Position numbers and translations under genes: made by a program. Below are positions 237-40,250 of a stretch of 64,000 nt of DNA, piece by piece. Each line of letters opens with the position of its first letter. Positions within the stretch are counted from its first letter, which is position 1. The notes under the pieces were generated by a model that was not told the origin of the DNA, did not search any database, and saw nothing but the letters and a program-made list of their open reading frames with translations. This DNA comes from Bordetella parapertussis (GTDB taxonomy: Bacteria; Pseudomonadota; Gammaproteobacteria; Burkholderiales; Burkholderiaceae_C). The stretch covers positions 1 to 64,000 of the forward strand of contig CAMCTC010000015.1 of the NCBI GenBank assembly GCA_945878355.1, in the 5' to 3' direction.

Positions 237-962
237 TCATACCTGGATTGGAAAATACTGCGCCGCGCAGTTGGCCGGGGCGATGCAGACGGTTCGCTTG
301 ACCGCGTCGATCACAAACGATTCCCAATGCGCCAGCGCTGCCGGCGCCTCGAGGTTCTCGCCCAGGAAGGATGACAGCGTGAACCGGTTGCTGAGGTAGA
401 AGTAAGCCATCGAAGCGATCATCAGGTAGACGTCGCGGGCGCTGAGTTCGGCCCGGAACAGCGCCTGCTCGGCACCGGCGCGCAGCACGCTGTCGGTGAT
501 CGCAAGCACCGGCGACGAGTACTCTCGCACCCTGGCGCTCTTGGCGATGAACTTGCCGCGGTGCAGATTTTCGGTGTTGAGCAGCGTGATGAATTCGGGG
601 TGCTTCTGGTAGTAACGCCAGACGAAGCGGATCACATCGCTCAGTGCTTGCAGAGGCTGGCTGATGTCCAGCGCCAACGTTTGTTCGGCCTCGTTGAATC
701 GGCGATAGGTGTCTTCCAGCACCGCGACGAACAGCGCTTGCTTGCTGCCGAAGTAGTAATAGATCATGCGGTCGCAGGACTTGGCAGCGGTCGAGATCTG
801 CTCGATCCGCCCGCCTGCGAAACCCTGCTTGGCAAACACCTTGGTTGCCGCGCGCAAGATGTTGTCACGCGTGGCTTGCGCCGCGAGTTCGCGCACACCA
901 GCTTTGCGCCGAGCCGGTAGCGCGGTGGCACCGGCAGGCTTGCTGCGCGCGGTGGTGGCCAT
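237..962 (-). CDS. TetR/AcrR-family transcriptional regulator
   Basis: This 241-residue protein has a TetR-type DNA-binding domain at about residues 27-80. The helix-turn-helix core holds the typical 'GRIEQISTAA' and 'IYYYFGSKQALF' stretches, and a variable ligand-binding C-terminal half follows. A basic, alanine-rich leader of about 25 residues precedes the domain. It lies 22 bp downstream of the ferredoxin-NADP reductase gene on the same strand, so the two probably form one operon divergent from the reductase/transporter/hydroxylase cluster. The likely role is ligand-responsive repression of that cluster; the ligand (nicotinate or a derivative) is inferred from context only. A palindrome in the divergent promoter region (1852-1869) is its best candidate operator. 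Confidence 0.9.
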   Translation of the reverse strand: MATTARSKPAGATALPARRKAGVRELAAQATRDNILRAATKVFAKQGFAGGRIEQISTAAKSCDRMIYYYFGSKQALFVAVLEDTYRRFNEAEQTLALDISQPLQALSDVIRFVWRYYQKHPEFITLLNTENLHRGKFIAKSARVREYSSPVLAITDSVLRAGAEQALFRAELSARDVYLMIASMAYFYLSNRFTLSSFLGENLEAPAALAHWESFVIDAVKRTVCIAPANCAAQYFPIQV

Positions 963-983
963 GACTTGAGGTATGGCCTAGGC

Positions 984-1757
984 CTATTGCTCGACGAAAG
1001 CGCGTTCGATCACGAAGTCGCCGGGCGTTGAGGTATTGCCTTCCTTGAAACCGCGCTGCGCCAGCATTGCTTTGAGGTCTTTGAGCAGCCCCGGGCTGCC
1101 GCAGATCATCACCCGGTCTTGCGCCGGGTCCAACGCGGGCAAGCCGAGGTCGGCCGTGAGCTTGCCCGACTCGACCAGGTCGGTGATGCGGCCGGTGTTG
1201 CGGAAAGCCTCACGCGTGACGGTGGGGTAGTAGCGCAGTTGGGCGCTGACCATCTCGCCCAGGAACTCATGCTGTTGCAACTCGTGGGTCAGGTAGTCGT
1301 GGTAGGCCAGTTCGGCGACCTCGCGCACACCGTGCACCAGGATCACTTGCTCGAAGCGCTCGTAGGTGGCTGGGTCGCGGACGATGCTCATGAAAGGCGC
1401 CATGCCTGTGCCGGTGCTCATCAGGTACAGGCGCTTGCCCGGCAGCAAGTAGTCGATCACCAACGTGCCGGTGGGCTTTCTGCCAACGACGATGCTGTCG
1501 CCGACCTGTATGTGCTGCAGCTTGCTCGTCAGCGGGCCGTCTTGCACCTTGATGCTGAGGAACTCGAGGTGCTCCTCGTAGTTGGCGCTGACGACGCTGT
1601 AAGCCCGCAGCAGCGGCTTGCCGTTGATGCGCAGGCCGATCATCGTGAAGTGGCCGTTCAGGAAGCGCAGCGACGGGTCTCGGGTGGTGGTGAAGGAGAA
1701 CAAGCGGTCTGTCCAGTGGTGGACGCTGAGGACTTGTTCGTCGTTGAATGCGCTCAT
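984..1757 (-). CDS. fpr: Ferredoxin--NADP(+) reductase (Fpr type)
   Basis: The product is 257 residues, the usual length of bacterial Fpr flavoproteins. It has an N-terminal FAD-binding barrel ('LRAYSVVS' is the RxYS FAD motif) and a C-terminal NADP-binding half ('STGTGMAPFMSIV' and 'MICGSPGLLKDL'). The start is placed at the ATG at 1757, which begins the conserved N-terminus; a longer frame upstream adds 18 low-complexity residues. The enzyme exchanges electrons between NADPH and ferredoxin or flavodoxin. It lies immediately upstream of a TetR gene and divergent from a 6-hydroxynicotinate-reductase-like gene. Because the Eubacterium barkeri enzyme uses reduced ferredoxin, this Fpr is a plausible NADPH-linked electron donor; that link is inference. 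Confidence 0.92.
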   Translation of the reverse strand: MSAFNDEQVLSVHHWTDRLFSFTTTRDPSLRFLNGHFTMIGLRINGKPLLRAYSVVSANYEEHLEFLSIKVQDGPLTSKLQHIQVGDSIVVGRKPTGTLVIDYLLPGKRLYLMSTGTGMAPFMSIVRDPATYERFEQVILVHGVREVAELAYHDYLTHELQQHEFLGEMVSAQLRYYPTVTREAFRNTGRITDLVESGKLTADLGLPALDPAQDRVMICGSPGLLKDLKAMLAQRGFKEGNTSTPGDFVIERAFVEQ

Positions 1758-1831
1758 GGTGCTGTGTTGGGTCGCTGCGGGCTGCGAAAGTCGTCGGCGG
1801 TCCGTGCGCAAGCGCGGAATGCCTCCCGCCC

Positions 1832-1860
1832 TTGCGCTGACAGTGCCTTAAATGTAGTAT
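1832..1860 (+). promoter_or_regulatory. Putative sigma70-type promoter for the hnr/transport operon
   Basis: A TTGCGC (1832-1837) and a TAGTAT (1855-1860) are separated by 17 bp, a sensible -35/-10 pair about 135 bp upstream of the ATG at 1996. The -10 hexamer lies inside the palindrome at 1852-1869, so a bound repressor would block polymerase. Hexamer matches are only partial. Confidence 0.35.
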
Positions 1861-1869
1861 CGACTACAT
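1852..1869. promoter_or_regulatory. Candidate TetR operator (inverted repeat)
   Basis: ATGTAGT-ATCG-ACTACAT is a perfect inverted repeat with 7-bp arms and a 4-bp centre, in the 238-bp divergent region between fpr and the hnr-like gene. The half-site ACTACAT recurs at 1885-1891, 22 bp (about two helical turns) downstream, facing a partial ATGT half at 1872-1875. Spacing and symmetry suit a TetR-family dimer, and the neighbouring regulator gene (237-962) is the obvious candidate. Confidence 0.55.
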
Positions 1870-1995
1870 CAATGTTTAGCAGGCACTACATGAAATACGG
1901 AGCCGCGGGTTCAGTCGATATTGTGCCCGAGCATTCGGGTTGTCCCGCAGTTGAGGGTCTGTTGGGTCTGGTGTCAGCCAATGCGGGGTTGGCCC

Positions 1996-3540
1996 ATGGC
2001 TGATGCGGGCGCGCCGCAGCCCGCCTGGATCACACCGGCGCGCAACGAGCGCATGGCTGCACACAAGATCGAGTGCAACGCCTGTCCGGTGCTGTGCCAG
2101 ATCAGCGAGGGCAAGGTTGGCGCCTGCGATCGCTACATCAACCAAGGCGGCGCGCTGCTGCGGGTTGACCCCTTGCTGCTGCTGCGCCAGCGTCTGGACG
2201 CTGGCGATGCCGCTGACGAGGTGCCCGAGTTGGTGGCTTTCCTGGCTGCGGACTCGGCGCCGCTGCCGCTGCTCGCCGGTGAGCCCGAGGTCTTCGTCAC
2301 CGCGGTGGGTGCGTCGACCACTTACCCGGATTACAAGCCTGCGCCTTTCATCGTCTCATCACAGGTCGACGGCGTCGACATGGTCACGGTGGTCACCGAG
2401 GGCATCTTCAGCTACTGCAGCCTGAAGGTGAAGATCGACACCGACCGCTGGCTAGGCCCCGAGCAGGCCAATGTGCGCTGCCAGGGCGAGGTCGTCGGTC
2501 ACGTCACGACAGCCGAGTACGGATCACAGATGCTCAGCCTGGGCGGCGTTCACCACATCACCGGAGGCAGCAAGAAAGAGGGTCGCGTCACGGTCGAGAT
2601 GATGCAGTCGCTGGGCAACAAGCAGCCGGTGACCTTGGCGATCGAGGGTGGCGCCCAGGTGATGGTTCAGGCCGGCCGGGCACCGGTGGTCGACGGCGTG
2701 CCCGAGGTGCGGATGCGCGTGGGCTGCGGCTCGGCCACGGTGGGCATCTTCGCCCAGCAGTTCTGCGACCAGGCCGACGAAGTGGTGGTGGTCGACGACC
2801 ACATCACCGGCGTGCTGACCGAGCATCAAGCCGGCCGCTGCCTTGGCATGCGGCCTTCGGGGCTGAAGATCCGCGGCCGCAAGAGCACGCCGGGGCGTTA
2901 CTTTCAGGTGGCCAACCCGGGTACCGGCTGGGGCGGCACCGACATCGACGACCCGCTGGCCATCATCGAGGGCTGGGATCCGGCGCTGGCTTGGCCGGGA
3001 CAGCGGCTGCTGATGGTCAGCACCACTGGCGAGCATGCGGCCTGGTATGTGCTGGACCAAAACCTGCAGCCGCAGCCCGCGGCGATGCCGGCCGAGGTGC
3101 ACACCATTGTCGAGCGGATCGGCGAGAACTGCGAACCGTCGCTGAGCACGGTTTTGTTCGTCGGCGGCGCAGGCGGCAGCCTGCGTGCTGGCGTGACCGA
3201 AAACCCGGTGCAGCTGACGCGGGCGATCAAGCAAAGCCTGGTCAACGTGACTTGCGGCGGCGCGCCGGCCTATGTCTGGCCGGGCGGCGGCATCACGCTG
3301 ATGGTCGATGTGATGCAGATGCCCGACAACAGTTTCGGTACCGTGCCGACGCCGGCAATCGTCGCGCCGATCGAGTTCAGCCTGCGCCTGGCAGACTTTC
3401 AGGCGCTGGGTGGGCACATGGCTTATGTGCGGCCGCTGGCCCAGGTGTTGGCCACCGGCGGCTGGCACCCGGACGGCGCACCGAGTGCGCGGCGCTTCAT
3501 CGCGCAGGCTGCCGGCAACCCCTGGCCTTTACTGCCGTGA
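1996..3540 (+). CDS. hnr: 6-hydroxynicotinate reductase-like Fe-S protein
   Basis: This 514-residue protein resembles the family annotated as 6-hydroxynicotinate reductase, known from Eubacterium barkeri, where it reduces 6-hydroxynicotinate to 1,4,5,6-tetrahydro-6-oxonicotinate with reduced ferredoxin. A cysteine cluster near the N-terminus ('ECNACPVLCQISEGKVGAC') should hold an Fe-S centre. Further features are a CGSATVG segment (residues 244-250), glycine-rich stretches (VGGAGGS, WPGGGIT) and a conserved TEGIFSYCSLKVKID block. The ATG at 1996 is chosen because the conserved sequence begins just after it; the frame extends upstream to a TTG at 1921. It is the first gene of a rightward operon and overlaps the next gene by GTGA. 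The function is by family resemblance plus context; the exact substrate is not proven. Confidence 0.72.
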   Translation: MADAGAPQPAWITPARNERMAAHKIECNACPVLCQISEGKVGACDRYINQGGALLRVDPLLLLRQRLDAGDAADEVPELVAFLAADSAPLPLLAGEPEVFVTAVGASTTYPDYKPAPFIVSSQVDGVDMVTVVTEGIFSYCSLKVKIDTDRWLGPEQANVRCQGEVVGHVTTAEYGSQMLSLGGVHHITGGSKKEGRVTVEMMQSLGNKQPVTLAIEGGAQVMVQAGRAPVVDGVPEVRMRVGCGSATVGIFAQQFCDQADEVVVVDDHITGVLTEHQAGRCLGMRPSGLKIRGRKSTPGRYFQVANPGTGWGGTDIDDPLAIIEGWDPALAWPGQRLLMVSTTGEHAAWYVLDQNLQPQPAAMPAEVHTIVERIGENCEPSLSTVLFVGGAGGSLRAGVTENPVQLTRAIKQSLVNVTCGGAPAYVWPGGGITLMVDVMQMPDNSFGTVPTPAIVAPIEFSLRLADFQALGGHMAYVRPLAQVLATGGWHPDGAPSARRFIAQAAGNPWPLLP

Positions 3541-4445
3541 GCGTGGCGGCCCAGCGCGCGCAGTTGCCCGGCGGACGCTGGCACTTCCAACACGGGCCGA
3601 TCGACATCGTGATCGCCGCCGAGGGTGAGGCGTCGGCGCTGCGCTGCGCGCACGCCGCGGCCTGGGCCCGCTTCGAGACCGTGCTGTCAGAGCTGGTGGC
3701 CGAATTGCCGCTGTTGCGCCGCCCTTTGTCTCGCGAGACCTGCCCGCTGGCAGGCGAGGTCGCGCGCCGGATGTGGGCTGCCTGCGCGCCGCTGGTGGTC
3801 GAAGCCGACGGCTACATCACGCCGATGGCTGCGGTCGCCGGCGCGGTCGCGCAGTCGCTGATCGGTTCGTACCATCGCGCGGGCATCGCCAGGGCCTGGG
3901 TCAACAACGGTGGCGACATTGCGCTGCACCTCAGCGCTGGCACCCAGGCCAGGGTCGGGCTGTACGCGGACCTCGCGGCATTCGACGTACAGGCCGCTGC
4001 GCGCAGCTTGGCGGGATGTTTGCGCACCGACGCGGGCTTCATGTTGCGCGCCGAGGACCCCGTGCGCGGCGTGGCCACCAGCGGCTGGCGCGGGCGCAGC
4101 CATTCGCGCGGCATCGCCGACAGCGTCACCGTGCTGGCCGGCAGTGCAGCGATGGCTGACGCTGCGGCCACCGTCATCGCCAACGCGGTCGATGCAGAGG
4201 CGCCTGGCATCGTTCGGCGCCCAGCTGACAGCTTGCGTGATGACAGCGACCTGGGTGCGATCGCCGTCACCGTCGCGGTGCCGGCGCTGCCCGACGATGT
4301 CGTGCAAGGCGCGCTGCAGCAAGGCCTGGACTGCGCGCGCCGACTGCAGCGCAGAGGCCTGGTGCATGCGGCGCTGCTGGTCTGTCAGGGTTCCCTCGCT
4401 CGGCTGCAGCCTGCGCAGGCCTTAGAGTCGGCGCTGGTTCAGTGA
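3537..4445 (+). CDS. UPF0280 family protein (ApbE-like fold)
   Basis: This 302-residue product is assigned to the UPF0280/DUF375 family. The GTG at 3537 overlaps the upstream TGA (GTGA), implying translational coupling to the reductase. Visible motifs resemble ApbE flavin transferases: 'WVNNGGDIALHL' parallels the ApbE NxGGDI segment, and 'GIADSVTVLAGSAAMADAAATV' positions match the ApbE region around the DAxSVTV...AD..AT motif. No function has been demonstrated for UPF0280. Coupling to a reductase whose E. barkeri counterpart is reported to be flavin-containing suggests cofactor attachment or maturation, which is inference. Confidence 0.78.
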   Translation: MSVAAQRAQLPGGRWHFQHGPIDIVIAAEGEASALRCAHAAAWARFETVLSELVAELPLLRRPLSRETCPLAGEVARRMWAACAPLVVEADGYITPMAAVAGAVAQSLIGSYHRAGIARAWVNNGGDIALHLSAGTQARVGLYADLAAFDVQAAARSLAGCLRTDAGFMLRAEDPVRGVATSGWRGRSHSRGIADSVTVLAGSAAMADAAATVIANAVDAEAPGIVRRPADSLRDDSDLGAIAVTVAVPALPDDVVQGALQQGLDCARRLQRRGLVHAALLVCQGSLARLQPAQALESALVQ

Positions 4446-4475
4446 TCAATCCATCACCTTGAGAATTCCCCCGCC

Positions 4476-5117
4476 ATGAGCCTGATCGACATTCGCCGCG
4501 TCTTCACCCAGGTCGAAGACATTTACCACGAGGGTGGACCGCGCTCGGCCATGCCCTTGCGCCGTGGCGCGATCGCCGCAGTGCTGACCAACCCCTATGC
4601 AGGTCGCTATGAGCCCGACATCCTGCCCTTGATGGCCGCGCTCAACCCCGTCGGACTGGACTTGGCGCGCCGCTTGCTGGCGGCGCTGGGCGTTGCGGCC
4701 GACCGCATCCAGGGCTATGGCAAGGGCGCGATCATCGGTGCCGCTGGTGAACTCGAGCATGGGGCGCTCTGGCATGTGCCGGGCGGTTATGCGATGCGCG
4801 AGTTGCTGGGGTGGAAGGGTGATGCAGCGGCTTATGCCAAAGGCATCTCCAGTGGCGGCCAAAGCGGCAACGCGCTGGCCCTCGTGCCCAGCACCAAGAA
4901 GGTCGGCGGCCCAGGTGCGACGCTGGATGTACCGCTGACCCACATCAACGCCTGCTATGTGCGCAGCCACTTTGACGCGATGGAAGTGCGGGTGCCCGGT
5001 GCGCCGCGGTCCGACGAGATGGTTGTGTTCCTGGCGATGAGCACCGGGCCTCGGATCCATGCCCGGATCGGCGGTCTGGCCGCAGACGATATTGCCAAGT
5101 GGGACGGCCAACGATGA
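4476..5117 (+). CDS. AA_synth (PF06684/DUF1185) family protein, paralogue 1
   Basis: This 213-residue protein belongs to the 'amino acid synthesis' family, whose name does not rest on demonstrated biochemistry. It shares with its neighbour at 5227-5823 the blocks NPYAGRY, YGKGAIIGAAGELEH, ALVPSTKKVGG, DVPLTH, VRSHFDAMEVRVPGAPR and RIGGL. The invariant Ser-Lys-Lys, His, Arg and Glu residues look catalytic. It lies 30 bp after the UPF0280 gene. In this setting it may act on the reduced lactam made by the upstream reductase, but no family member with that activity is known to me. Confidence 0.82.
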   Translation: MSLIDIRRVFTQVEDIYHEGGPRSAMPLRRGAIAAVLTNPYAGRYEPDILPLMAALNPVGLDLARRLLAALGVAADRIQGYGKGAIIGAAGELEHGALWHVPGGYAMRELLGWKGDAAAYAKGISSGGQSGNALALVPSTKKVGGPGATLDVPLTHINACYVRSHFDAMEVRVPGAPRSDEMVVFLAMSTGPRIHARIGGLAADDIAKWDGQR

Positions 5118-5226
5118 CCTACCTCCTTAGCGCCTGCGGCGCTACCCCTCAAGAGGGCCGAGACCGGACCTGCTGGGTCCAGTGGACACGGCTTGCCAAG
5201 AACACCACCTCTGGAGCCATCGCAAC

Positions 5227-5823
5227 ATGACCGCAAACATCCCGAGCTATGTCCGCAAGATCGTCGTCCAGGTCGACGAGATCCACCGCGAAATGGGCCG
5301 TGACATCGCGCCGCCGACGCGCCGTGCGCTGGCGATGGCGGTGATCGCCAACCCGTACGCCGGCCGCTACGCCGAGAATCTCGATGCGCTGATCGCCATC
5401 GGCGAGGAACTCGGCGGGCTGCTCGGCGACCGCTGCGTGCAGGCGCTGGGCATCACGCCAGCGCAAGCCCAGAGCTACGGCAAGGCGGCGATCGTCGGCG
5501 AGGCTGGCGAACTCGAGCACGCCGCCGCGATCCTGCACCCCAAGCTCGGCGCACCGCTGCGCATCGCGGTTGAAAGAGGCGCTGCGCTGGTGCCTTCGGC
5601 CAAGAAGCAGGGCGGCCTGGGCACCGCAGTGGACGTGCCACTGGGCCACAAGGACGCGGCTTTCGTTCGCAGCCATTTCGACGCGATCGAGGCCCGGATC
5701 GGCGACGCGCCGCGCGCTGGCGAGATCCTGGTCGCCGTGGCCGTGACCGACAGCGGCCGACCCTTGCCGCGCATCGGCGGCCTGCAAGCCCATGAGATCA
5801 AAGGCCAGGACGGTCTGCGCTGA
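5227..5823 (+). CDS. AA_synth (PF06684/DUF1185) family protein, paralogue 2
   Basis: The 198-residue product is a divergent copy of the preceding gene, with the same ordered motifs (NPYAGRY, SYGKAAIVGEAGELEH, ALVPSAKKQGG, DVPLGH, VRSHFDAIEARI, RIGGLQ). It lacks a roughly 15-residue insertion that paralogue 1 has between the GELEH and ALVPS blocks. The ATG at 5227 is preferred over an in-frame ATG at 5182 because conservation begins there. The 109-bp gap after paralogue 1 contains no gene. Two unequal adjacent copies suggest a hetero-oligomer or two consecutive reactions; both ideas are inference. Confidence 0.82.
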   Translation: MTANIPSYVRKIVVQVDEIHREMGRDIAPPTRRALAMAVIANPYAGRYAENLDALIAIGEELGGLLGDRCVQALGITPAQAQSYGKAAIVGEAGELEHAAAILHPKLGAPLRIAVERGAALVPSAKKQGGLGTAVDVPLGHKDAAFVRSHFDAIEARIGDAPRAGEILVAVAVTDSGRPLPRIGGLQAHEIKGQDGLR

Positions 5824-5892
5824 CGCGCAGACCGGGCCGAGCCCATTCGCCCGTGACCGTTGTCTTCAATCTATTTCAAAAAGGTTCACCCC

Positions 5893-7092
5893 ATGACCCG
5901 ACTTCCCCTGACCACTGCGCTGCTGTCTTTGGCGCTGTTGGCTGCCGTGCCCGCCCATGCCCAGGGCGTGATCAAGATCGGTGAGGTCAACAGCTACAAA
6001 GTCCAGCCAGCCTTTCTCGAGCCCTACAAAAAGGGCATGGAACTCGCGGTCGAGGAGATCAACGCCGGCGGTGGCCTCATCGGCAAGAAGCTGGTGCTGA
6101 TCACGCGTGACGACAACGGAGCGCCGGGCGACGCGGTGCGCGCTGCCGAGGAATTGGTCTCGCGCGAGCAGGTCGACGTGCTGACCGGTGGCTTCCTGTC
6201 CAACATCGGCCTGGCGCTGACTGATTTCGCCAAGCAGAAGAAGTTCTTCTACCTTGCTTCGGAGCCCTTGACCGACAAGATCGTCTGGGGCAGTGGCAAC
6301 AAGTACACCTACCGGCTGCGGCCGTCGACCTATATGCAGTCGGCGATGCTGGTGCCCGAGGCCGTCAAGCTGAAGAAGAAGCGCTGGGCCGTCGTCTACC
6401 CCAACTACGAGTACGGCCAGTCGGCGGTGGCTACTTTCAAGGCGCTGCTCAAGGCCGCGCAGCCCGACGTCGAGTTCGTTGCCGAACAAGCGCCGCCATT
6501 GGGCAAACTCGACGCCGGCAGTGTGGTGCAGGCGCTGGCCGACGCCAAGCCCGACGCGATCTTCAATGTGCTGTTTGGCGCCGACCTGTCCAAGTTCGTG
6601 CGTGAGGGCAACACCCGTGGCCTGTTCCAGGGCCGCGAGGTCGTCAGCATGCTGACCGGCGAGCCCGAGTATCTCGATCCGCTGAAGGACGAAACCCCGA
6701 ACGGCTGGATCGTCACCGGCTACCCCTGGTACGGCATCCAGACGCCCGAACACAAGGCCTTCTTCCTGGCCTACCACCGCAAGTACAACGACTATCCGCG
6801 TCTGGGATCGGTGGTGGGCTACGCGGCGATCCAGTCGCTCGCTGCGGGCATCACCAAGGCCAAGAGCACCGACACCGAGAAGCTGGTCGCAGCGTTCAAG
6901 GGGCTGGAACTGATGACGCCGTTTGGCAAGACGGTCTACCGGAAGCAGGACAACCAGTCGACGATGGGAGCCTATGTCGGCAAGACCAAGAACGACAAGG
7001 GCAAGGGCACGATGGTCGACTATGTCTACCTCGATGGCGCGAAGTACCAGCCCAGCGATGCCGAGGTCAAGAAGCTGCGGCCGGCGGACTGA
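5893..7092 (+). CDS. Branched-chain-type ABC transporter substrate-binding protein
   Basis: This 399-residue protein starts with a signal peptide (about residues 1-23, ending in PAHAQG), so it is periplasmic. The rest is a type I periplasmic-binding fold of the LivJ/LivK class ('IKIGEVNSYKVQPAFLEPYKKGMELAVEEINAGGGL', split here as family core; 'LITRDDNGAPGDAVRAAEEL'; 'WAVVYPNYEYGQ'). It precedes the matching permease and ATPases, although a 539-bp spacer intervenes. Family members bind amino acids, amides or aromatic acids; the neighbouring catabolic genes suggest an aromatic N-heterocycle such as nicotinate. The ATG at 5893 is chosen because it starts the signal peptide. Confidence 0.92.
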   Translation: MTRLPLTTALLSLALLAAVPAHAQGVIKIGEVNSYKVQPAFLEPYKKGMELAVEEINAGGGLIGKKLVLITRDDNGAPGDAVRAAEELVSREQVDVLTGGFLSNIGLALTDFAKQKKFFYLASEPLTDKIVWGSGNKYTYRLRPSTYMQSAMLVPEAVKLKKKRWAVVYPNYEYGQSAVATFKALLKAAQPDVEFVAEQAPPLGKLDAGSVVQALADAKPDAIFNVLFGADLSKFVREGNTRGLFQGREVVSMLTGEPEYLDPLKDETPNGWIVTGYPWYGIQTPEHKAFFLAYHRKYNDYPRLGSVVGYAAIQSLAAGITKAKSTDTEKLVAAFKGLELMTPFGKTVYRKQDNQSTMGAYVGKTKNDKGKGTMVDYVYLDGAKYQPSDAEVKKLRPAD

Positions 7093-7631
7093 TGCAGAAC
7101 AGAGTGGGTGAGGCTTGTTGGTGATGGATGCAGGCGGGGCAGGGTGGCTGGGTGCATCGGGCACTTTGCAGTCATTGATGCCTTGCCTCGGGACCCGGCA
7201 TTCAAAGTGCAGTGCGCGAGCATCAGGCCGGACTGGCGTGTTCTGCTCCGTGTCCCCCGCCGTCGGCAAAAACCGCCGACGGCTCCTCCTCTACCGACGC
7301 AGAACACGCCAACCCGTCCTGATGCGCCTCCACTGTCGGTGCCCTGGCACGTCGGTCCCACGACGCAATGCGAGAAGCTGGATGGGCCGAGGGCGCCGAG
7401 TGGCCGGATGCCGGAGGTAAAGGAGGAGCCGGCGGCTGCTCTTGCCGGCGGCGGAGGAAACGGAGGCAGCCGGCCACCCGGTGGCCTCGGCCTCGCTCCA
7501 CCCCAGCAGGCGGCAGCAATCGATCGCTGCCAAAGAAGCAGCCTATCGCAAGGTCTGCTCGGTTCCCCAAGCAGCCCGCACGAACTTGATTTGGGTGTAC
7601 CCAAGCTCTGATTTCTGGACCGCGAAGCGAC
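7093..7631. other. Long structured intergenic spacer inside the ABC operon
   Basis: No gene could be supported in these 539 bp between the binding-protein and permease genes. The open frames here have no recognisable product. The spacer contains a long imperfect inverted repeat (7221-7324) and a second complementary pair (7281-7290 with 7421-7430). A near-palindrome, GGCAGCAATCGATCGCTGCC, lies near 7512-7531. Such structure could limit read-through, giving more binding protein than permease, or could be a remnant of a small mobile palindromic element. Confidence 0.6.
7221..7324. repeat. Large imperfect hairpin (inverted repeat)
   Basis: The outer arms at 7221-7246 and 7299-7324 match in 23 of 26 positions. 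An apical stem GCCGTCGGC (7259-7267) and GCCGACGGC (7275-7283) is a perfect 9-bp pair closing a 7-nt A-rich loop. Weaker symmetry continues outside the arms. The 10-mer GGCTCCTCCT at 7281-7290 can alternatively pair with AGGAGGAGCC at 7421-7430, overlapping the apical stem by 3 nt, so two folds compete in part. Confidence 0.75.
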
Positions 7632-9530
7632 ATGGATTTTTCCGGATTACTCGTCCAACTGCTCAACGGCTTGGCCGGCGCGTCGTCGCTGTTCCTGGTC
7701 GCGGCCGGGCTGTCGCTGATCTTCGGCGTCACGCGCGTCGTCAACTTCGCGCATGGCTCGTTTTTCATGCTGGGCGTCTACATCGCCTACAGCCTGGTGG
7801 AGCGCTTTGGCGCAGGGCTGGGCTTCTGGCCCGCGCTGGCGCTGTCGGCGCTCGCCACGGGTGCGATCGGCGCGCTGGTCGAGGTGGTCGTGCTGCGACG
7901 GATTTACCGTGCGCCCGAGTTGTTCCAACTGCTCGCGACCTTCGCGCTGGTGCTGGTGATCAAGGACGCAGCGCTGTGGCTGTGGGGGCCCGAGGATTTG
8001 CTGGGACCCCGCGCGCCGGGGCTGTCCGGTGCGGTCGACATCCTGGGCCGGCGCTTTCCCAGCTACGATTTGCTGTTGATCGTCGTCGGCCCGCTGGTGC
8101 TGGGCGCGCTGTGGCTGCTGCTCAAGCGCACCCGCTGGGGCATGCTGGTGCGCGCGGCGACGCAGGACCGCGAAATGGTCGGTGCGCTCGGCGTGAACCA
8201 GGCTTGGCTGTTCACCAGCGTGTTCGCACTCGGCGCGATGCTCGCGGGCTTGGGCGGCGCGCTGCAACTGCCGCGCGAGCCGGCTTCGCTCAACCTCGAT
8301 CTATTGACCATTGGCGACGCTTTCGTCGTCGTCGTGGTCGGCGGCATGGGCTCGATCCCGGGGGCTTATGTCGCCGCGCTGCTGATCGCCGAAATCAAGG
8401 CGATGTGCGTCGGGCTGGGCACGGTCCAGGCTTTTGGTGTCGATTTCAGTTTTTCCAAACTCACGCTGGTGGCCGAATTTCTGGTGATGGCTGTCGTGCT
8501 GGTGTGGCGGCCCTGGGGCTTGATGGGGCGGCCGCAGGCGCCCAGCCGAAACAGCGCGGCGATCGAGCCGCCGCTTCGCCCTGCGAGCCGGCTGTTGCTG
8601 GGCGCTGCCGCACTGGCGGCTGTCGGCTTGCTGCTGCTGCCGCTTGCCACGACCGGCAGCCCTTATGTCACGGTGCTCGCGATCGACTTGCTGACCGCCG
8701 CGTTGTTCGCCGCCAGCCTGCACTTCATCATGGGGCCGGCGGGTATGCATTCGTTCGGCCATGCGGCTTACTTCGGGCTGGGGGCTTACGCCGCCGCACT
8801 GCTGATGCTAAAGGCGGCTTGGCCGATGGAGGCCGCGCTCGCAGCCGCACCGCTGGCCGCTGGCTTGGGCGCAGCGGTGTTCGGATGGTTCTGCGTTCGT
8901 TTGTCGGGCGTCTACCTGGCAATGCTCACGCTCGCGTTCGCTCAGATCGTCTGGTCGGTCACCTTCCAGTGGGACGAACTCACCGGTGGCAGCAATGGTC
9001 TGACTGGCGTCTGGCCGGCAGCCTGGCTGGCCGACAAGCGTAGCTATTACTTCCTGACGCTGGCGCTGGTGGCCGGCGGCGTGCTGGCGCTGCGCCGAAT
9101 GCTGTTCTCGCCTTTCGGCTACGCGATGCGTGCTGGTCGCGACTCACCGCTGCGGGCTGACGCGATCGGCATCGACGTGCCGCGCATCCAGTGGGCGGCA
9201 TTCGTCGTCGCGGCGCTGTTTGCCGGGCTGGCCGGTTCGCTCTATGCCTTCAGCAAGGGCAGCCTGTCGCCCGACAGCCTGGGGGTGGGTAAATCGGTCG
9301 ATGGTCTGGTGATGGTCTTGCTGGGCGGGGTGCAGACGCTGGCCGGACCTGTGGTCGGCGCGGTCAGCTTCACCTGGCTGCAAGACACGGTGGCACGCAG
9401 CACCGACTACTGGCGCGCCATGCTGGGCGGCATCGTGTTGCTGCTGGTGTTGGCGTTCCCGCAAGGCATTGCGGGTTTTGTCGGCCAGCTGGCTGATCGA
9501 TTGATCGAGCGCCGCCGGAGCGGCGCATGA
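7632..9530 (+). CDS. Fused LivH-LivM ABC transporter permease
   Basis: At 632 residues this is about the sum of LivH and LivM. Residues 1-300 are LivH-like ('SLIFGVTRVVNFAHGSFFML', 'GMLVRAATQDREMVGALGVN', 'VVGGMGSIPGAYVAALLI'). Residues from about 330 are LivM-like ('AGMHSFGHAAYFGLGAYAAA', 'LSGVYLAMLTLAFAQIVWSV', 'GRDSPLRADAIGIDVPRIQW'). A proline- and arginine-rich linker joins them. Many hydrophobic helices place it in the inner membrane. It overlaps the downstream ATPase gene by ATGA, so the permease and both ATPases are co-translated. It should form the channel for the periplasmic binding protein at 5893-7092. Confidence 0.93.
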   Translation: MDFSGLLVQLLNGLAGASSLFLVAAGLSLIFGVTRVVNFAHGSFFMLGVYIAYSLVERFGAGLGFWPALALSALATGAIGALVEVVVLRRIYRAPELFQLLATFALVLVIKDAALWLWGPEDLLGPRAPGLSGAVDILGRRFPSYDLLLIVVGPLVLGALWLLLKRTRWGMLVRAATQDREMVGALGVNQAWLFTSVFALGAMLAGLGGALQLPREPASLNLDLLTIGDAFVVVVVGGMGSIPGAYVAALLIAEIKAMCVGLGTVQAFGVDFSFSKLTLVAEFLVMAVVLVWRPWGLMGRPQAPSRNSAAIEPPLRPASRLLLGAAALAAVGLLLLPLATTGSPYVTVLAIDLLTAALFAASLHFIMGPAGMHSFGHAAYFGLGAYAAALLMLKAAWPMEAALAAAPLAAGLGAAVFGWFCVRLSGVYLAMLTLAFAQIVWSVTFQWDELTGGSNGLTGVWPAAWLADKRSYYFLTLALVAGGVLALRRMLFSPFGYAMRAGRDSPLRADAIGIDVPRIQWAAFVVAALFAGLAGSLYAFSKGSLSPDSLGVGKSVDGLVMVLLGGVQTLAGPVVGAVSFTWLQDTVARSTDYWRAMLGGIVLLLVLAFPQGIAGFVGQLADRLIERRRSGA

Positions 9531-10294
9531 GCTTGCTCAGCGTCACCGGTCTAGGCAAGTCCTTCGGCGGCAACCGTGCCGTCGATGGCATCGATTTTTC
9601 GGTTGCACCGGGCGAGTTGCTCGCGCTGATTGGCCCCAACGGCGCGGGCAAATCGACGACCTTCAACATGGTCAACGGCCAACTCAAGGCCGACACGGGT
9701 TCGATCCGTCTGGATGGCCAGGAGTTGATCGGTCGCAAGCCGCGCGAGATCTGGAAGCTCGGCGTGGGCCGTACTTTCCAGATCGCCGAGACCTTTGCCT
9801 CTCTGACCGTGGTCGAGAACGTGCAGATGGCGCTAATCTCGGCCGACGCCCGCTTGTTCTCGTTCTGGCGCCGGGCGGCGGCCTATCGCCGCGCTGATGC
9901 GCTGGCCTTGCTCGACCAAGTCGGCATGGCGCCGCAGGCCGACCGACCCTGCAGCGTGCTGGCCTACGGCGATGTCAAGCGGGTCGAGCTGGCGATCGCG
10001 CTGGCCAACAACCCGAAGCTGCTGCTGATGGACGAGCCCACCGCCGGCATGGCGCCGGCCGAGCGCCATGCGTTGATGGCATTGACCAAGCGTCTGGTGG
10101 TCGAGCGTGGCCTGGGCGTGTTGTTCACTGAGCACAGCATGGACGTGGTGTTCGCCCATGCTGACCGGCTGATCGTGCTGGCGCGCGGTCGCTTGATCGC
10201 GCAGGGCCGGCCGGCCGAGATCCGTGACGACCCGCAGGTCCAGGCGGTCTACTTTGGCAGTGGCAAGACCTTCGAGAAGGAGGGCGGCGCATGA
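9527..10294 (+). CDS. livG: ABC transporter ATP-binding protein, LivG type
   Basis: This 255-residue ATPase has Walker A GPNGAGKST (residues 36-44), a Walker B with catalytic Glu in LLLMDEPTAGM and a downstream switch His (TEHSMDVVF). The signature motif region reads 'SVLAYGDVKRVELA', where the usual LSxGQ is replaced by LAYGD, as is common in LivG proteins. It overlaps the permease by 4 bp (ATGA) and the LivF-type gene by 4 bp. It powers the same importer. Confidence 0.93.
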   Translation: MSLLSVTGLGKSFGGNRAVDGIDFSVAPGELLALIGPNGAGKSTTFNMVNGQLKADTGSIRLDGQELIGRKPREIWKLGVGRTFQIAETFASLTVVENVQMALISADARLFSFWRRAAAYRRADALALLDQVGMAPQADRPCSVLAYGDVKRVELAIALANNPKLLLMDEPTAGMAPAERHALMALTKRLVVERGLGVLFTEHSMDVVFAHADRLIVLARGRLIAQGRPAEIRDDPQVQAVYFGSGKTFEKEGGA

Positions 10295-11028
10295 ACCCAG
10301 TGAACGAGGTCTTGCTCGAAGCCAAGCGGCTGTCAGCCTGGTACGGTGCGGCGCAAATCTTGTTCGACGTCGACCTGCAGGTGCGGCGCGGCGAGGTGGT
10401 CGCGCTGATGGGGCGCAACGGCGCGGGCAAGAGCACCACGCTCAAGGCCTTGATGGGTATGCTGGCGCGGCGCGACGGCCAAGTGAGCTTCATGGGCCGC
10501 GACATCAGCAGTGCCGAGCCGCATGTGATCTCCCGCGCCGGTCTCGGTTTCGTGCCGGAGGACAGACGCATCTTCGCCGACCTGACTGTGTTGGAAAACC
10601 TCGAGGTCGCGCGCCAGCCGCCGCGGCGTTGGCCCGACGGCAGTGCTGCGCCGAGCTGGACCCCTGCAGCCTTGTTCGAGCTGTTTCCCAACCTCGGCGA
10701 GATGCCCGACCGTCCTGGAGCGCGCATCAGCGGCGGCGAGCAGCAGATGCTCACGGTCGCAAGAACCCTGATGGGCAATCCCTTGCTGGTGCTGCTAGAC
10801 GAGCCCAGCGAGGGTGTCGCGCCGCTGATCGTCGAGCAGATGGTGCGGATGATCCTGGCGCTCAAGCGCCAGGGCGTCAGCATTCTGCTGTCCGAGCAGA
10901 ACATGCACTTCGCCGAGCTGGTGTCTGACCGTGCCTATGTGCTCGAGAAAGGCCAGATTCGCCACCAGGCCACGATGGCCGATCTGGCTGCGAACGAAGA
11001 GGTGCGCAGGGCGTACCTGTCGATGTGA
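10291..11028 (+). CDS. livF: ABC transporter ATP-binding protein, LivF type
   Basis: The 245-residue product has Walker A GRNGAGKST (residues 41-49), signature ISGGEQQML, Walker B LLVLLDEPSEGVAP and the LivF-like 'LGFVPEDRRIFADLTVLENL' segment. The start overlaps livG by ATGA. It completes a five-component type I importer (binding protein, fused permease, two ATPases). The 2Fe-2S subunit gene of the hydroxylase follows 7 bp later, tying import and the first oxidation step into one transcription unit. Confidence 0.93.
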   Translation: MNPVNEVLLEAKRLSAWYGAAQILFDVDLQVRRGEVVALMGRNGAGKSTTLKALMGMLARRDGQVSFMGRDISSAEPHVISRAGLGFVPEDRRIFADLTVLENLEVARQPPRRWPDGSAAPSWTPAALFELFPNLGEMPDRPGARISGGEQQMLTVARTLMGNPLLVLLDEPSEGVAPLIVEQMVRMILALKRQGVSILLSEQNMHFAELVSDRAYVLEKGQIRHQATMADLAANEEVRRAYLSM

Positions 11029-11035
11029 GTCATCC

Positions 11036-11578
11036 ATGGTTCAGCCGGCAACGCGACCGATCCCCCCATCGATAGCCCTGCGGGTGAACGGCCGGATCGA
11101 ACACCTGGCCGTGGACGGCGCGGTGCCGCTGCTGACCGTGCTGCGCAACGACCTGGGGTACAACGGCCCGAAGTACGGCTGCGGCCTCGGTCAGTGCGGT
11201 GCCTGCATGGTGCTGGTGGACGGCGTGGCCGCGCGTGCCTGCGCGATCCCGCTGGCCGGGGTCGCGGGGCGCGAGGTGATCACGCTAGAAGGCCTGGGCC
11301 GCCTCGCCGGGCTTTGCACCTCAGCTGACGAACTGCACCCTGTGCAAAAAGCCTTCATCGCGACCCAGGCCGCGCAGTGCGGCTACTGCCTCAACGGCAT
11401 GATCATCGCCACCGTCGCGCTGCTGCGTCGCCATCCGCGGCCCACCGAGGCGCAGGCGCGGTCTGCGCTGTCGCACAACCTGTGCCGCTGCGGCAGCCAT
11501 CTCGAGATTCTGGCTGCGGTGCAGCTTGCGGCGCAGTGGATGGCCGAATCGTCGCCAGCGTCGGACCCTGCGCTGTGA
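11036..11578 (+). CDS. nicA: Molybdenum hydroxylase small subunit, 2x[2Fe-2S] (NicA-like)
   Basis: This 180-residue protein has the two-domain layout of xanthine-dehydrogenase-family iron-sulfur subunits: a plant-ferredoxin motif (CGLGQCGACMVLVDG...RAC) and a helical second cluster motif (QCGYCLNGM...NLCRCGSH). It relays electrons from the molybdenum site in the next gene product to its cytochrome c domain. The GTG of the large subunit overlaps its stop. The nearest characterised arrangement is NicAB nicotinate hydroxylase of Pseudomonas putida, in which NicA is the separate Fe-S subunit and NicB carries molybdopterin plus cytochrome domains. Isoquinoline 1-oxidoreductase-type substrates remain possible. 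Confidence 0.85.
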   Translation: MVQPATRPIPPSIALRVNGRIEHLAVDGAVPLLTVLRNDLGYNGPKYGCGLGQCGACMVLVDGVAARACAIPLAGVAGREVITLEGLGRLAGLCTSADELHPVQKAFIATQAAQCGYCLNGMIIATVALLRRHPRPTEAQARSALSHNLCRCGSHLEILAAVQLAAQWMAESSPASDPAL

Positions 11579-14500
11579 TCGCGTCGCCCCGCGTCTGGCG
11601 CAGCCGCGCCGATTTCCGCGCCGCGCCCGATGCGCTGCTGGTGCTGCGCCAGCCACCGGTGCCGCCGCCGCCGACCCCGGGCCAGCCGGCCATCGTCGGG
11701 GCCAATCCGGCCGAGGGGCTGGAGGTCTTGCTCGCGCTGTACGCCGCTGGCGGCGGCCGGGCCGCGGCGATCGCGCTGGTCGGCCATGTCGACCTGGGCA
11801 CCGGCATCGCGACGGCCTATGGCCAGATCGCTGCCGAGGAGCTTGACCTTGCGCCCGACCAGGTCCAAGTGATCCTGGGCGACACGGCGCGCGCGCCCAA
11901 CCAGGGCCCGACGATCGCAAGCACCTCGATCCAGCGCCATGCCGAGCCTTTGCGCCTGGCCGCAGCCCAGGCCAGGGCCTGGTTGGTTGCCGAGGCCGCC
12001 GCGCGCTGGGGCCTGCGGGCGCAGGACTTGCGCAGCGCCGACGGCGTGCTGCACGCACCCGATGGCCGCCGGCTGGCTTACGCGGAGCTGCTGGTCGGCC
12101 GCCATGTCGAGTTGATGCTCGACGACGCGACCGTCACCAAGCCTGAAGCCGATTACCGGGTGGTCGGGCGCTCGATCCCGCGCATCGACCTGACGGTCAA
12201 GGCCAGCGGGGGCGATGTCTATGTCCACGACATGCGGCTGCCCGGCATGTTGCACGGCCGGGTGCTGCGCCCGCCCTATGCCGGGGTAGACGCCGGCGAT
12301 TTCGTTGGCCGATCGCTGCTGAGCGTCGACGAGGCCTCGATCGCCCAGCTGCCGGGCATCGAAAAGCTGGTCGTGATCGGCGACTTCATCGGCATCGTCG
12401 CCGAGCGCGAAGAGCAGGCCGAGGCTGCGGTCCATGCGCTGGCGGTGACCTGGGCGCCATTCACCCCGCTGCCGCCGCTGGCCGATCTGGCCCAGGCGAT
12501 CAGCGCCCACCCCAGCCGACCGCGGATGGTGGCGCAGCATGGCGATGTCGAGTCGGCACTGGACCAGGCGACGCAGCGCCTAGACCGCAGCTATGTCTGG
12601 CCTTACCAGATGCACGCGTCGATCGGACCGTCTTGCGCGCTGGCCGACTGGCGTGGCGATGGGCCTGATGCGCAGGCCACGGTCTGGACCGGCAGCCAGA
12701 ACCCGCATGTGCTGCGCGCCGACCTCGCACTGCTCACCGGTCTGGCCGACACCGCGATCGAGGTGATCCGGCTCGAAGCATCGGGCTGCTACGGTCGCAA
12801 CAGCGCCGACGACGTGGCCGCCGATGCGCTGCTGCTGTCGCGCGCGGTGGGTCGACCGGTGCGGGTGCAGCTCAGCCGCGAGCAAGAACACGCGTGGGAG
12901 CCCAAGGGCGCGGCCCAGCTGATGCAGGTGCGCGGCGGGTTGGCAGCGGATGGCTCGCCTGCGGGTTACGACTTCGCCACCAGCTACCCGAGCAACGGCG
13001 CGCCGACGCTGGCCTTGCTGCTGACCGGCAAGGTCTCGGCTGTTGCGCAGGCCTACGAAATGGGCGACCGCACGTCGGTGCCGCCTTATGCCTATGCCCA
13101 CCAGCGCATCACTGTCAACGACATGGCGCCTATCCTGCGCGCCAGCTGGTTGCGCGGCGTCTCGGCGTTGCCCAACGCCTTCGCCCACGAGAGCCACATC
13201 GACGAGCTCGCCAGCGCTGCCGGTGTCGACCCGGTGGCCTACCGCTTGCGCTACCTGCACGACGATCGCGCTGCCGAGTTGGTTCGCGCCACCGCGGCCA
13301 AGGCCGGCTGGTTGCCGCACAGCGCGCCGCAATTGCGTGCATCGGATGGCGATTGGCTGCAAGGCCAGGGCTTTGCCTATGCCCGCTACATCCACAGCAA
13401 GTTCCCTGGTTTCGGCGCGGCCTGGGCGGCCTGGGTTGCCGATGTGCAGGTCAACCGAGTCACCGGCGAGGTGCATGTCGCGCGGGTGGTGGTGGGCCAC
13501 GACGCCGGGCTGATGATCAACCCCAAGGGCGTCGAGCAGCAAGTCCACGGCAATGTGTTGCAGACCACCAGCCGCGCGCTGATGGAGCAGGTCCGGGTTG
13601 ACCCGGTCACGCGCACGGTGGCAAGCCGGGAGTGGGGCAGCTACCCGATCCTGAGCTTCCGAGAGGTGCCGGTGGTCGAGGTGATGCTGATGCCAAGGCC
13701 CGGCGAAGCGCCGCTGGGTGTCGGTGAATCGGCCTCGGTGCCGGGCACTGCAGCGATCGCCAACGCGATCTTCGACGCCACCGGCGTTCGATTCCGCAAC
13801 CCACCGTTCACGCCCGAGGTGGTTCGTGCGGCGCTCAACCCCTTGCCGCCTCCCGCCGCGCCCACGGTTCCGATCGCAGAGGTGGTGGCGATGGCAAATG
13901 ACCCGCAGCGCCGTCGCAAGCCGCGCTGGGCGCTGGCGGGTGCGATCGCCACCGGGCTGGTCGGGCTGGCGGCGGCAGCGCTGGGTTGGCGAACCGCGAT
14001 CGCGCCGGTGCAGGCCAGCGCGAGCGGTGTCTACAGCGCTGCGCTGGTCGCGCGTGGCCAGCAGCTCGCGGCGGTCGGTAACTGCGTGGCATGCCACACC
14101 GCCGAAGGCAGGCTGCCGGGTGCCGGCGGCCGAGCGCTGGCCACACCCTTTGGCACGGTCTACAGCACCAACCTGACGCCGGATGCAGCCACCGGCATCG
14201 GCCGCTGGTCGTTCTCGGCCTTCCAGCGCGCGATGCGCGAAGGCTTGTCGCGCGACGGCAGCCACCTCTACCCGGCTTTCCCCTACACGGCTTTCACGCA
14301 GACCAGCGACGAGGACTTGACGGCGCTCTACGCTTGGCTGATGTCACGCCCGGCGGTCGCGGCCAGCGTGCCCAAGACCCGGTTGGTTTGGCCTTTCAAC
14401 TGGCGAGCGCTGATGGGTCTGTGGAACGCGGTCTACCTGCAACCCGGCCCGGTCGCGTTGACCGTGCCGCGCAGCGCGCAGTGGCAGCGCGGCGCTGAAC

Positions 14501-15198
14501 TCGTCAATGGCCTGGGCCACTGCAGCGCCTGCCACACGCCGCGTGACGCCTTGGGCGGTGAACGCGCCAGCCGGTCCTACCTGGCCGGTGCGTTGGTCGA
14601 TGGCTGGGAGGCGCCGCCGCTGGGCGCGCTGAGCCGATCGCCACTGCGCTGGACCGAGGCCGCGATGCTGCAATACCTGCGACAGGGCCACCACCCCGAG
14701 CACGGCATCGCCGGCGGATCGATGGCCGAGGTGGTGCGTGGGCTGGCCGGTGCGGCCGAGTCCGATCTGCAGGCGATGGCGCATTACCTGGTGTCGCTGC
14801 AGCCCGACCGCGCGCCGATATTGGCTGCGACGCTGGTGGCGCAGGCCGCAGCGCGTGCCGCTGCGCTGCCGGGCCCGGCCCAGCGATTGTTCGAATCGGC
14901 CTGCGGTGCTTGCCACCACGACGGTGACGGCCCCGAGGTGCTGGGGCTGAACCAGCCGCTCGCGCTCAACACCAATCTGCACAGCGAGCGGCCCGACAAC
15001 CTGATCCGCACGGTGCTCGACGGCATCTGGCAGCCGGCCTATGTCGCGATCGGCCACATGCCGGCTTTCGGTCGGGCGCTGGACGACCAGCAGATCGCCG
15101 AACTCGCTGCGTACTTGCGACTGCGCTTCGCCCCCGACCGGCCAGCCTGGACCGACTTGGCTGGCGTGGTGGCCAGGCTGCGCGAGGCGGGCCGCTAA
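11575..15198 (+). CDS. nicB: Molybdopterin hydroxylase large subunit fused to tri-haem cytochrome c (NicB-like)
   Basis: This 1207-residue fusion starts at a GTG overlapping the nicA stop. Residues 1-760 are a xanthine-dehydrogenase-type molybdopterin domain; Glu718 in GVGESASVPG sits where the family's catalytic Glu is found. A hydrophobic segment (about 782-805) could anchor the protein. The C-terminus has three haem c motifs, CVACH (837), CSACH (983) and CGACH (1110). The domain order and length match NicB of P. putida nicotinate hydroxylase, which passes electrons to the respiratory chain instead of to NAD or O2. Predicted reaction: water-derived hydroxylation of an N-heterocycle such as nicotinate to 6-hydroxynicotinate. 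The substrate is inferred from the neighbouring reductase. Confidence 0.85.
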   Translation: MIASPRVWRSRADFRAAPDALLVLRQPPVPPPPTPGQPAIVGANPAEGLEVLLALYAAGGGRAAAIALVGHVDLGTGIATAYGQIAAEELDLAPDQVQVILGDTARAPNQGPTIASTSIQRHAEPLRLAAAQARAWLVAEAAARWGLRAQDLRSADGVLHAPDGRRLAYAELLVGRHVELMLDDATVTKPEADYRVVGRSIPRIDLTVKASGGDVYVHDMRLPGMLHGRVLRPPYAGVDAGDFVGRSLLSVDEASIAQLPGIEKLVVIGDFIGIVAEREEQAEAAVHALAVTWAPFTPLPPLADLAQAISAHPSRPRMVAQHGDVESALDQATQRLDRSYVWPYQMHASIGPSCALADWRGDGPDAQATVWTGSQNPHVLRADLALLTGLADTAIEVIRLEASGCYGRNSADDVAADALLLSRAVGRPVRVQLSREQEHAWEPKGAAQLMQVRGGLAADGSPAGYDFATSYPSNGAPTLALLLTGKVSAVAQAYEMGDRTSVPPYAYAHQRITVNDMAPILRASWLRGVSALPNAFAHESHIDELASAAGVDPVAYRLRYLHDDRAAELVRATAAKAGWLPHSAPQLRASDGDWLQGQGFAYARYIHSKFPGFGAAWAAWVADVQVNRVTGEVHVARVVVGHDAGLMINPKGVEQQVHGNVLQTTSRALMEQVRVDPVTRTVASREWGSYPILSFREVPVVEVMLMPRPGEAPLGVGESASVPGTAAIANAIFDATGVRFRNPPFTPEVVRAALNPLPPPAAPTVPIAEVVAMANDPQRRRKPRWALAGAIATGLVGLAAAALGWRTAIAPVQASASGVYSAALVARGQQLAAVGNCVACHTAEGRLPGAGGRALATPFGTVYSTNLTPDAATGIGRWSFSAFQRAMREGLSRDGSHLYPAFPYTAFTQTSDEDLTALYAWLMSRPAVAASVPKTRLVWPFNWRALMGLWNAVYLQPGPVALTVPRSAQWQRGAELVNGLGHCSACHTPRDALGGERASRSYLAGALVDGWEAPPLGALSRSPLRWTEAAMLQYLRQGHHPEHGIAGGSMAEVVRGLAGAAESDLQAMAHYLVSLQPDRAPILAATLVAQAAARAAALPGPAQRLFESACGACHHDGDGPEVLGLNQPLALNTNLHSERPDNLIRTVLDGIWQPAYVAIGHMPAFGRALDDQQIAELAAYLRLRFAPDRPAWTDLAGVVARLREAGR

Positions 15199-27264: not shown

Positions 27265-27294
27265 CCCTTGCAGTCAATAAGGGGCGTGCGCAGT

Positions 27295-29716: not shown

Positions 29717-29719
29717 GGT

Positions 29720-32074: not shown

Positions 32075-32119
32075 TGCGGGGCTAGGCTTGAGACGAACCC
32101 GGGCCGCTGCTGGCGCAGT

Positions 32120-33136: not shown

Positions 33137-33152
33137 GATCAGTCTCCTGGTC

Positions 33153-35368: not shown

Positions 35369-35372
35369 CGAT

Positions 35373-36266: not shown

Positions 36267-36284
36267 GCGCAGTCTCCTGGAGCG

Positions 36285-40248: not shown

Positions 40249-40250
40249 GA

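Follow-up and report, generated by a model that had tools for sequence, protein, structure and literature searches.

A probable Azorhizobium-type reductive nicotinate pathway on a Bordetella parapertussis contig, and the conserved genes that accompany its putative reductase

Main finding

We analyzed a stretch of 64 kilobases (kb) of Bordetella parapertussis DNA (contig CAMCTC010000015.1, positions 1 to 64,000; hereafter the window), whose left end holds a tight cluster of 12 genes (237-15198), all with intact frames and a single terminal stop each. Its gene content makes it highly likely that this cluster encodes a reductive nicotinate pathway of the type described in Azorhizobium caulinodans, centered on a homologue of 6-hydroxynicotinate reductase (Hnr). 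This reading draws on gene content, orthology to the Azorhizobium cluster, the co-occurrence of enamidase in the closest genus and an operator-like palindrome. On the A. caulinodans ORS571 chromosome (G705, 5,369,772 bases), 11 of the 12 window proteins find a match (E<=1e-5, best-match identity 51-68%), and in 93 of 102 related loci the same accessory block, a UPF0280 gene with AA_synth genes, lies behind hnr. The same gene set, which the sequence-only reading had proposed to look for in other genomes, thus recurs far beyond chance.

The substrates and electron route that we infer would run as follows. The ATP-binding cassette (ABC) importer would bring in nicotinate or a close relative, and the two-subunit molybdenum (Mo) hydroxylase, with its three c-type haem motifs, would hydroxylate C6 with water and deliver the electrons to the respiratory chain. 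Reduced nicotinamide adenine dinucleotide phosphate (NADPH) would feed the Fpr-type protein and, directly or via ferredoxin, the iron-sulfur (Fe-S) reductase Hnr, which would convert 6-hydroxynicotinate to 1,4,5,6-tetrahydro-6-oxonicotinate (THON). An enamidase, probably encoded beyond the window, would hydrolyze the THON ring to 2-formylglutarate and ammonia, on the way to glutarate, while the cluster is probably controlled by a TetR repressor through the palindrome in the fpr-hnr gap.

Gene content and match to Azorhizobium

The features of the cluster are as follows:

237-962, minus strand: TetR-family regulator (Pfam TetR_N, TetR_C_29)
984-1757, minus strand: Fpr-type ferredoxin/flavodoxin-NADP reductase (NAD_binding_1, FAD_binding_6)
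1852-1869, fpr-hnr gap: perfect palindrome, operator candidate (TGTAG-N6-CTACA core)
1996-3540, plus strand: Hnr homologue, 514 residues (relatives' names; 62% identity to Azorhizobium)
3537-4445, plus strand: UPF0280 protein (NCBIfam PRK04334.1-2); its GTG start overlaps the hnr stop
4476-5117, plus strand: AA_synth protein 1 (Pfam PF06684, formerly DUF1185; E=6.3e-69)
5227-5823, plus strand: AA_synth protein 2, paralogue of protein 1 (Pfam E=9.4e-70 on the open reading frame (ORF) 5182-5823; start re-set to the ATG at 5227)
5893-7092, plus strand: periplasmic binding protein of a branched-chain-type ABC importer (Peripla_BP_6)
7632-9530, plus strand: fused LivH-LivM-type permease, 632 residues (BPD_transp_2, two stretches)
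9527-10294, plus strand: LivG-type ATPase (60% identity to Azorhizobium)
10291-11028, plus strand: LivF-type ATPase (59% identity to Azorhizobium)
11036-11578, plus strand: NicA-type [2Fe-2S] small subunit of the Mo hydroxylase (Fer2, Fer2_2)
11575-15198, plus strand: NicB-type Mo large subunit with three C-terminal cytochrome c motifs (MoCoBD_1, MoCoBD_2, CxxCH)

Pfam, NCBIfam and orthology bear out the earlier claim that a NicAB-like, cytochrome-linked Mo hydroxylase, an Hnr-like protein, a ferredoxin-NADP reductase and an importer stand in one cluster; the earlier list lacked tetR (237-962), the UPF0280 gene (3537-4445) and the two AA_synth genes. Identity to the A. caulinodans proteins amounts to 67% for Fpr, 62% for Hnr (498 aligned columns), 66% for the binding protein, 56% for the fused permease, 60% for the Mo small subunit and 59% over 1170 residues for the Mo large subunit. 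The A. caulinodans genome holds a single Hnr match and a single enamidase match, and in ORS571 both fpr and enamidase adjoin the Mo genes.

Nicotinate catabolism via 6-hydroxynicotinate and THON in A. caulinodans goes back to Kitts 1989 and 1992, as relayed by PMC3511419 and PMC9304392; the latter gives the same steps for Eubacterium barkeri and A. caulinodans and terms the route anaerobic, and the genome paper (PMC2443382), which reports a chromosome of 5,369,772 bases, describes A. caulinodans as an aerobic bacterium. According to PMC3511419 (2012), the reductive step from 6-hydroxynicotinate to THON was observed in the anaerobe E. barkeri, the Hnr homologue of strain SG-6C is 42% identical to that of E. 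barkeri, and the SG-6C cluster is shared by other proteobacteria, among them A. caulinodans (AZC_2804-2790). In the conserved cluster, the enzymes for steps one to three are encoded alongside a putative importer and two proteins without a known function, and SG-6C routes 6-chloronicotinate into the same pathway (PMC3511419). The UPF0280 and AA_synth proteins of the window presumably include those two function-unknown proteins.

Enamidase in the lineage

A carboxylase of the window (59081-60748), compared across 42 genomes, is most similar to the copies in G690 (84%) and in G503 (83%), whose genus comprises one genome. By Hnr, the window's nearest genomes (94, 94 and 92% identity) belong to the genus of G690, represented here by 21 genomes, G415 included. 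Hnr occurs in 17 of them, and enamidase (E<=1e-20) in all 17 of these and in none of the four without Hnr; the 17 include G848, with an 80-residue piece only, and G833, where the gene is cut by the contig end. Across the twelve loci from this genus (L157-L168), enamidase stands behind tetR in eight, and L159 and L163 end before that spot. In L157 and L158, the closest genomes that reach it (TetR 92% and 90% identical), the gene starts 58-79 bases past the tetR match, while about 0.5 and 2 kb lie between the two genes in L160 and L165. The L157 enamidase matches the Protein Data Bank (PDB) entry 2vun, “enamidase,” at E=6.3e-109. In L161 (G839) and L168 (G835), no enamidase is present behind tetR within the visible 1.4 and 3.4 kb, respectively, and the gene is located on another contig instead; displacement of the enamidase therefore does occur.

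A similar picture emerges from L128-L150 (23 loci, 22 from the family of G214 and L130 from the phylum sample), where enamidase directly follows tetR in 20. L128 is too short to reach the spot, L130 has the gene between livF and the Mo genes, and for L135, where it was unseen in the stretch, the genome (G596) carries it at a distance of about 20 kb on the same contig.

Bases 1-236 of the window align with no relative examined, though enamidase closely follows tetR in L157 and L158; when the first 1200 bases were compared with ten relatives, all DNA alignments began between bases 264 and 301. An enamidase N-terminus in bases 1-236 was first expected and then ruled out by reading frames and tblastn: the three minus-strand frames of bases 1-330 contain none. 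In this strain, the enamidase is displaced, further away or lost. Judging from the sequences of the genus, the host very probably has an enamidase outside the window, whose lack here is a likely edge effect. The sequence-only reading had reported no enamidase, which is true of the 64 kb by tblastn and does not extend to the Hnr-bearing lineage.

Hnr and its accessory block

The Hnr homologue matched no Pfam or NCBIfam model. Among the at least 120 relatives listed for it, several are named “6-hydroxynicotinate reductase,” and others are “hypothetical protein” or nameless. Its cysteines 27, 30, 34, 44, 244 and 379 are invariant across 55 sequences, consistent with an Fe-S enzyme. The predicted structure is fair (predicted local distance difference test, pLDDT, 80; predicted template modeling score 0.72), and E<=0.001 was reached by none among the 600 PDB fold matches listed. 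PDB sequence matches to gp41 constructs (best E 9.1e-5, 84 query residues) were dismissed as chance, being biologically senseless.

The block behind hnr was counted in the 102 of 109 related loci with at least 3.5 kb on that side; the loci are related, and the counts are not independent. Directly behind hnr, UPF0280 is found in 95, at least one AA_synth gene in 94, both in 93 and two AA_synth genes in at least 73. The nine exceptions are L024, L029, L035, L036, L049, L052, L061, L064 and L068. Upstream placement of UPF0280 and AA_synth relative to hnr was observed in L024, L036, L052 and L061, which are some alphaproteobacterial and Granulosicoccus loci.

The UPF0280 protein scores 365 bits against PRK04334.1-2 (cut-off 290), and its AlphaFold2 model has a pLDDT of 92. 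Foldseek places 41 PDB chains at E<=0.001, namely two chains of 2o34 and ApbE-type flavin mononucleotide transferases, with E values of 6.2e-12 to 2o34 and 2.6e-6 to Escherichia coli Ftp and moderate template modeling scores (0.39-0.70); the protein is accordingly modeled with an ApbE (flavin-transferase) fold. ApbE proteins carry the motif H-H/N-I-x-D-P or D-P-x-T-G. Because this motif is present in 0 of 55 UPF0280 sequences, a role as a working flavin transferase is no more than possible. The AA_synth proteins have as PDB relatives the uncharacterized 3byq and 2qtp (3byq_A, E=1.5e-51 for protein 1). The title of PMC2954203 points to amino-acid metabolism for this family; PMC7913881 reports that TgnF, an AA_synth homologue, has a stimulating effect on a dehydrogenase of Acinetobacter baylyi, and that no comparable stimulation was detectable for HcdD. 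Our literature search on UPF0280 and DUF1185 returned the term “UPF0280” in none of the matches listed.

UPF0280 and the AA_synth pair are near-constant partners of Hnr and perhaps serve its cofactor or complex. More tentatively, and at somewhat less than an even chance in our estimate, hnr-UPF0280-AA_synth-AA_synth may be one functional unit whose accessory proteins are unrecognized parts of the 6-hydroxynicotinate reductase system, delivering flavin or another cofactor or forming a complex that enables a reductive Fe-S enzyme to work in aerobes. On this reading the adjoining ring-opening step would be exchangeable, with enamidase in most of the lineages seen and HyuAB in Rhizobiaceae and some other Alphaproteobacteria.

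Hydroxylase, electron supply and importer

The Mo large subunit carries CxxCH motifs at residues 837, 983 and 1110, after the Mo domain, in a single chain fused to cytochrome c rather than in the split form of the E. barkeri type. Its top hydrophobic segment, at residue 786 (mean 1.89), precedes the haem motifs, and the second, at residue 51 (1.77), lies within the Mo domain. Since the latter scores almost as high as the former, a topology with the Mo domain in the cytoplasm and the haems in the periplasm is conjecture. For the large subunit, none of the 16 NCBIfam models listed comes anywhere near its cut-off, and NCBIfam names for the Mo subunits were dropped as a guide to the substrate because all scores fell below cut-off.

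For the Fpr-type protein, the best NCBIfam model is the ferredoxin--NADP(+) reductase model PRK10926, at E=1.7e-45 but with 155 of the 390 bits that its cut-off demands, and the protein is the probable electron supply of Hnr. The importer genes together span 5893-11028, and their product probably carries nicotinate or 6-hydroxynicotinate.

Between the binding-protein and permease genes lies an element of 540 bases (7093-7631) that contains long inverted repeats and is apparently non-coding. L159 contains a 400-base stretch 89% identical to this element, in opposite orientation and with the same gene pair around it, so the element may have flipped between the window and L159. Rfam gave zero matches in the window at gathering scores.

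Regulation

The palindrome in the fpr-hnr gap reads ATGTAGTATCGACTACAT (1852-1869) and is, on its sequence, a candidate TetR operator; the TetR protein is likely the repressor of the cluster. The pattern TGTAG-N4..8-CTACA occurs in 9 of 21 homologous gaps, that of the window among them, where mononucleotide shuffles predict 0.02; the gaps are related and not independent. The other 12 are without it, and L140 is even without a half site. L130, L132 and L143 were excluded from the count, as fpr was not found there.

Distribution and a HyuAB variant

Hnr matches were obtained in 34 of 398 genomes sampled from the phylum of Xanthobacter G002 (two of them weak, E 2e-4 and 3.7e-4, and one, G023, in two frames), in 49 of 299 from the family of G214 and in 44 of 149 from the family of G002. 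In addition, 26 plasmid records carry hnr (Sulfitobacter, Rhizobium, Comamonadaceae and others), one predicted to be conjugative and two mobilizable, which is why the gene may move between lineages.

Near hnr, 67 of the 109 loci have an enamidase gene (at least 45% identity), 12 have a hydantoinase-A gene (hyuA, at least 60%) and none has both; among the 61 loci that extend 9 kb or more to each side, the figures are 40 with enamidase, 12 with hyuA and 9 with neither. In L003-L014, mainly Rhizobiaceae with some other Alphaproteobacteria, HyuAB (hydantoinase/oxoprolinase-type) occupies the place of enamidase. The hyuA stretch is stop-free in the matches of L003 and L006-L014, and one TGA was counted inside several hyuA matches.

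Twenty genomes were checked whole: eight with the hyuA cluster (L007-L014), nine with neither gene near hnr and three enamidase controls. Seven of the eight hyuA-cluster genomes are without enamidase, and the eighth, G853, has a copy of 58% identity, which counts against a strict swap. Among the nine, seven have enamidase elsewhere, G860 has none and a 71% hyuA, and G863 has none and a 51% hyuA. No hyuA above 45% was found in the three controls or in the seven “neither” genomes with enamidase. HyuAB may open the THON ring in those lineages. The literature search that touched on this variant returned “hydantoinase” in none of the matches listed.

Weighing the alternatives

Several observations weigh against an Azorhizobium-type nicotinate pathway. 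The case for nicotinate as the substrate comes from published studies of Azorhizobium and of strain SG-6C; TetR is the one window protein without a match in the Azorhizobium region, which has a MarR gene instead; and among the 109 related loci, many of them short, fpr lies near hnr in only 52 and the binding-protein gene in only 72. Two unlike kinds of Mo hydroxylase accompany Hnr, a cytochrome type (46 of 109) and a flavin adenine dinucleotide type (53 of 109). Finally, tblastn with two enamidases found none in the 64 kb, and the 236 bases beyond tetR are without the enamidase start seen there in L157 and L158. The diversity of hydroxylases, the distance of the Mo large subunit from the cut-offs of the 16 NCBIfam models listed, the fact that no curated model names the substrate and the entry of 6-chloronicotinate into the pathway of SG-6C (PMC3511419) would all suit a cluster that degrades another N-heteroaromatic compound, for instance a substituted pyridine carboxylate, by the same hydroxylate-reduce-hydrolyze chemistry. 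We nevertheless regard this as improbable, given that Hnr, the relatives' enamidase, the importer, Fpr and the hydroxylase all have orthologues in the cluster of a known nicotinate user with a single Hnr and a single enamidase match.

The sequence-only reading had proposed a hybrid route without an oxygenase. The evidence supports a reductive route in an aerobic-type host, one that uses no oxygenase once nicotinate has been hydroxylated with respiratory electron transfer; its novelty is not supported, since the A. caulinodans pathway and the PMC3511419 cluster are published and the ORS571 locus matches gene by gene except for tetR. In its stricter form, in which this host has no enamidase and another enzyme opens the ring, the proposal could appeal to the empty window and to the HyuAB genes that replace enamidase in 12 of 109 relatives, which indicate that the step is achievable otherwise. 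Against it stand the 17 of 17 Hnr-bearing genomes of the genus with enamidase, the genes on other contigs in G835 and G839, the variable spacing in L160 and L165, and the lack of HyuAB both in the first 20 kb of the window and among the 50 ORFs scanned; we give it hardly any credence. Scarcely better placed, and very unlikely, is a host that uses the nicCDEFX route with the present cluster as a side function or relic. The window covers 64 kb, and a nic operon could lie elsewhere in the host genome; yet the 12 frames are intact, conservation in the closest genomes is strong (e.g., Hnr 94%), and no NicC- or NicX-like protein was evident among the 50 window ORFs of the Pfam scan, which did not cover every ORF and used no NicC or NicX query.

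Other features of the window

Three further regions lie to the right of the cluster. NiFe hydrogenase genes, a cytochrome b, HypB/D/E/F-type proteins and a formyltransferase-enoylhydratase fusion, which we take to be HypX-like, occupy 25498-41492 and point to hydrogen-oxidizing potential. Apparent V/A-type ATPase genes (an alpha/beta-type subunit, a subunit I-like protein and subunit c) are found at 45572-52012 in this betaproteobacterial-looking genome. At 53788-57813, 2-oxoacid:ferredoxin oxidoreductase-type genes adjoin an Fe-S flavoprotein, presumably of the GltD type. The reading frame 53788-55416 was considered as NicC-like and rejected (FAD_binding_3, E=1.6e-4, below cut-off); it is a Fer4_20/Pyr_redox_2 protein instead.

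Significance and comparison with known systems

The pathway itself was described in Azorhizobium about thirty years ago and the gene cluster in 2012, while three conserved genes of the cluster have only putative roles. A reductive pathway for vitamin B3 (nicotinate), whose biochemistry was worked out in an aerobic rhizobium and whose genes were described in a few Bradyrhizobiaceae, is here extended to probable Burkholderiales, where our samples suggest a common occurrence (49 of 299 genomes in a single family). Testable functions are put forward for two partners of Hnr, the ApbE-fold protein and the AA_synth pair; no solved structural relative was found for Hnr itself, and other lineages show an apparent swap of the ring-opening enzyme.

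The nic cluster of Pseudomonas putida (NicAB, NicC, NicX) shares with the window the NicA/NicB-type hydroxylase, with three cytochrome c motifs in what we take to be the P. putida NicB architecture, and differs in its oxygenase route, whereas the window encodes a putative reductive route with no oxygenase route seen. Nicotinate fermentation in E. barkeri, whose lower pathway is fermentative, has the Hnr and enamidase (2vun) steps in common, the enamidase being known here from the relatives of the window. Its Mo hydroxylase, however, contains selenium and has a split large subunit (PMC5746545), whereas that of the window carries cytochrome c.

The plasmid CP099606 (L001) of Comamonadaceae bacterium OTU4NAUVB1 has the same gene order from tetR/fpr through the Mo large subunit, with 58-82% identity to the best reference protein (Mo small subunit left out of the comparison with the window). 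It differs in being plasmid-borne and in having the enamidase, a match to 2vun at E=2.4e-111, directly behind tetR. The clusters of A. caulinodans ORS571 (AZC_2804 to AZC_2790) and of Bradyrhizobiaceae differ in gene order, in having MarR where the window has TetR and in including the enamidase, of which there is none within the window; they share with it the cytochrome-c Mo hydroxylase, Hnr, UPF0280, two AA_synth proteins, the importer with a fused permease and Fpr.

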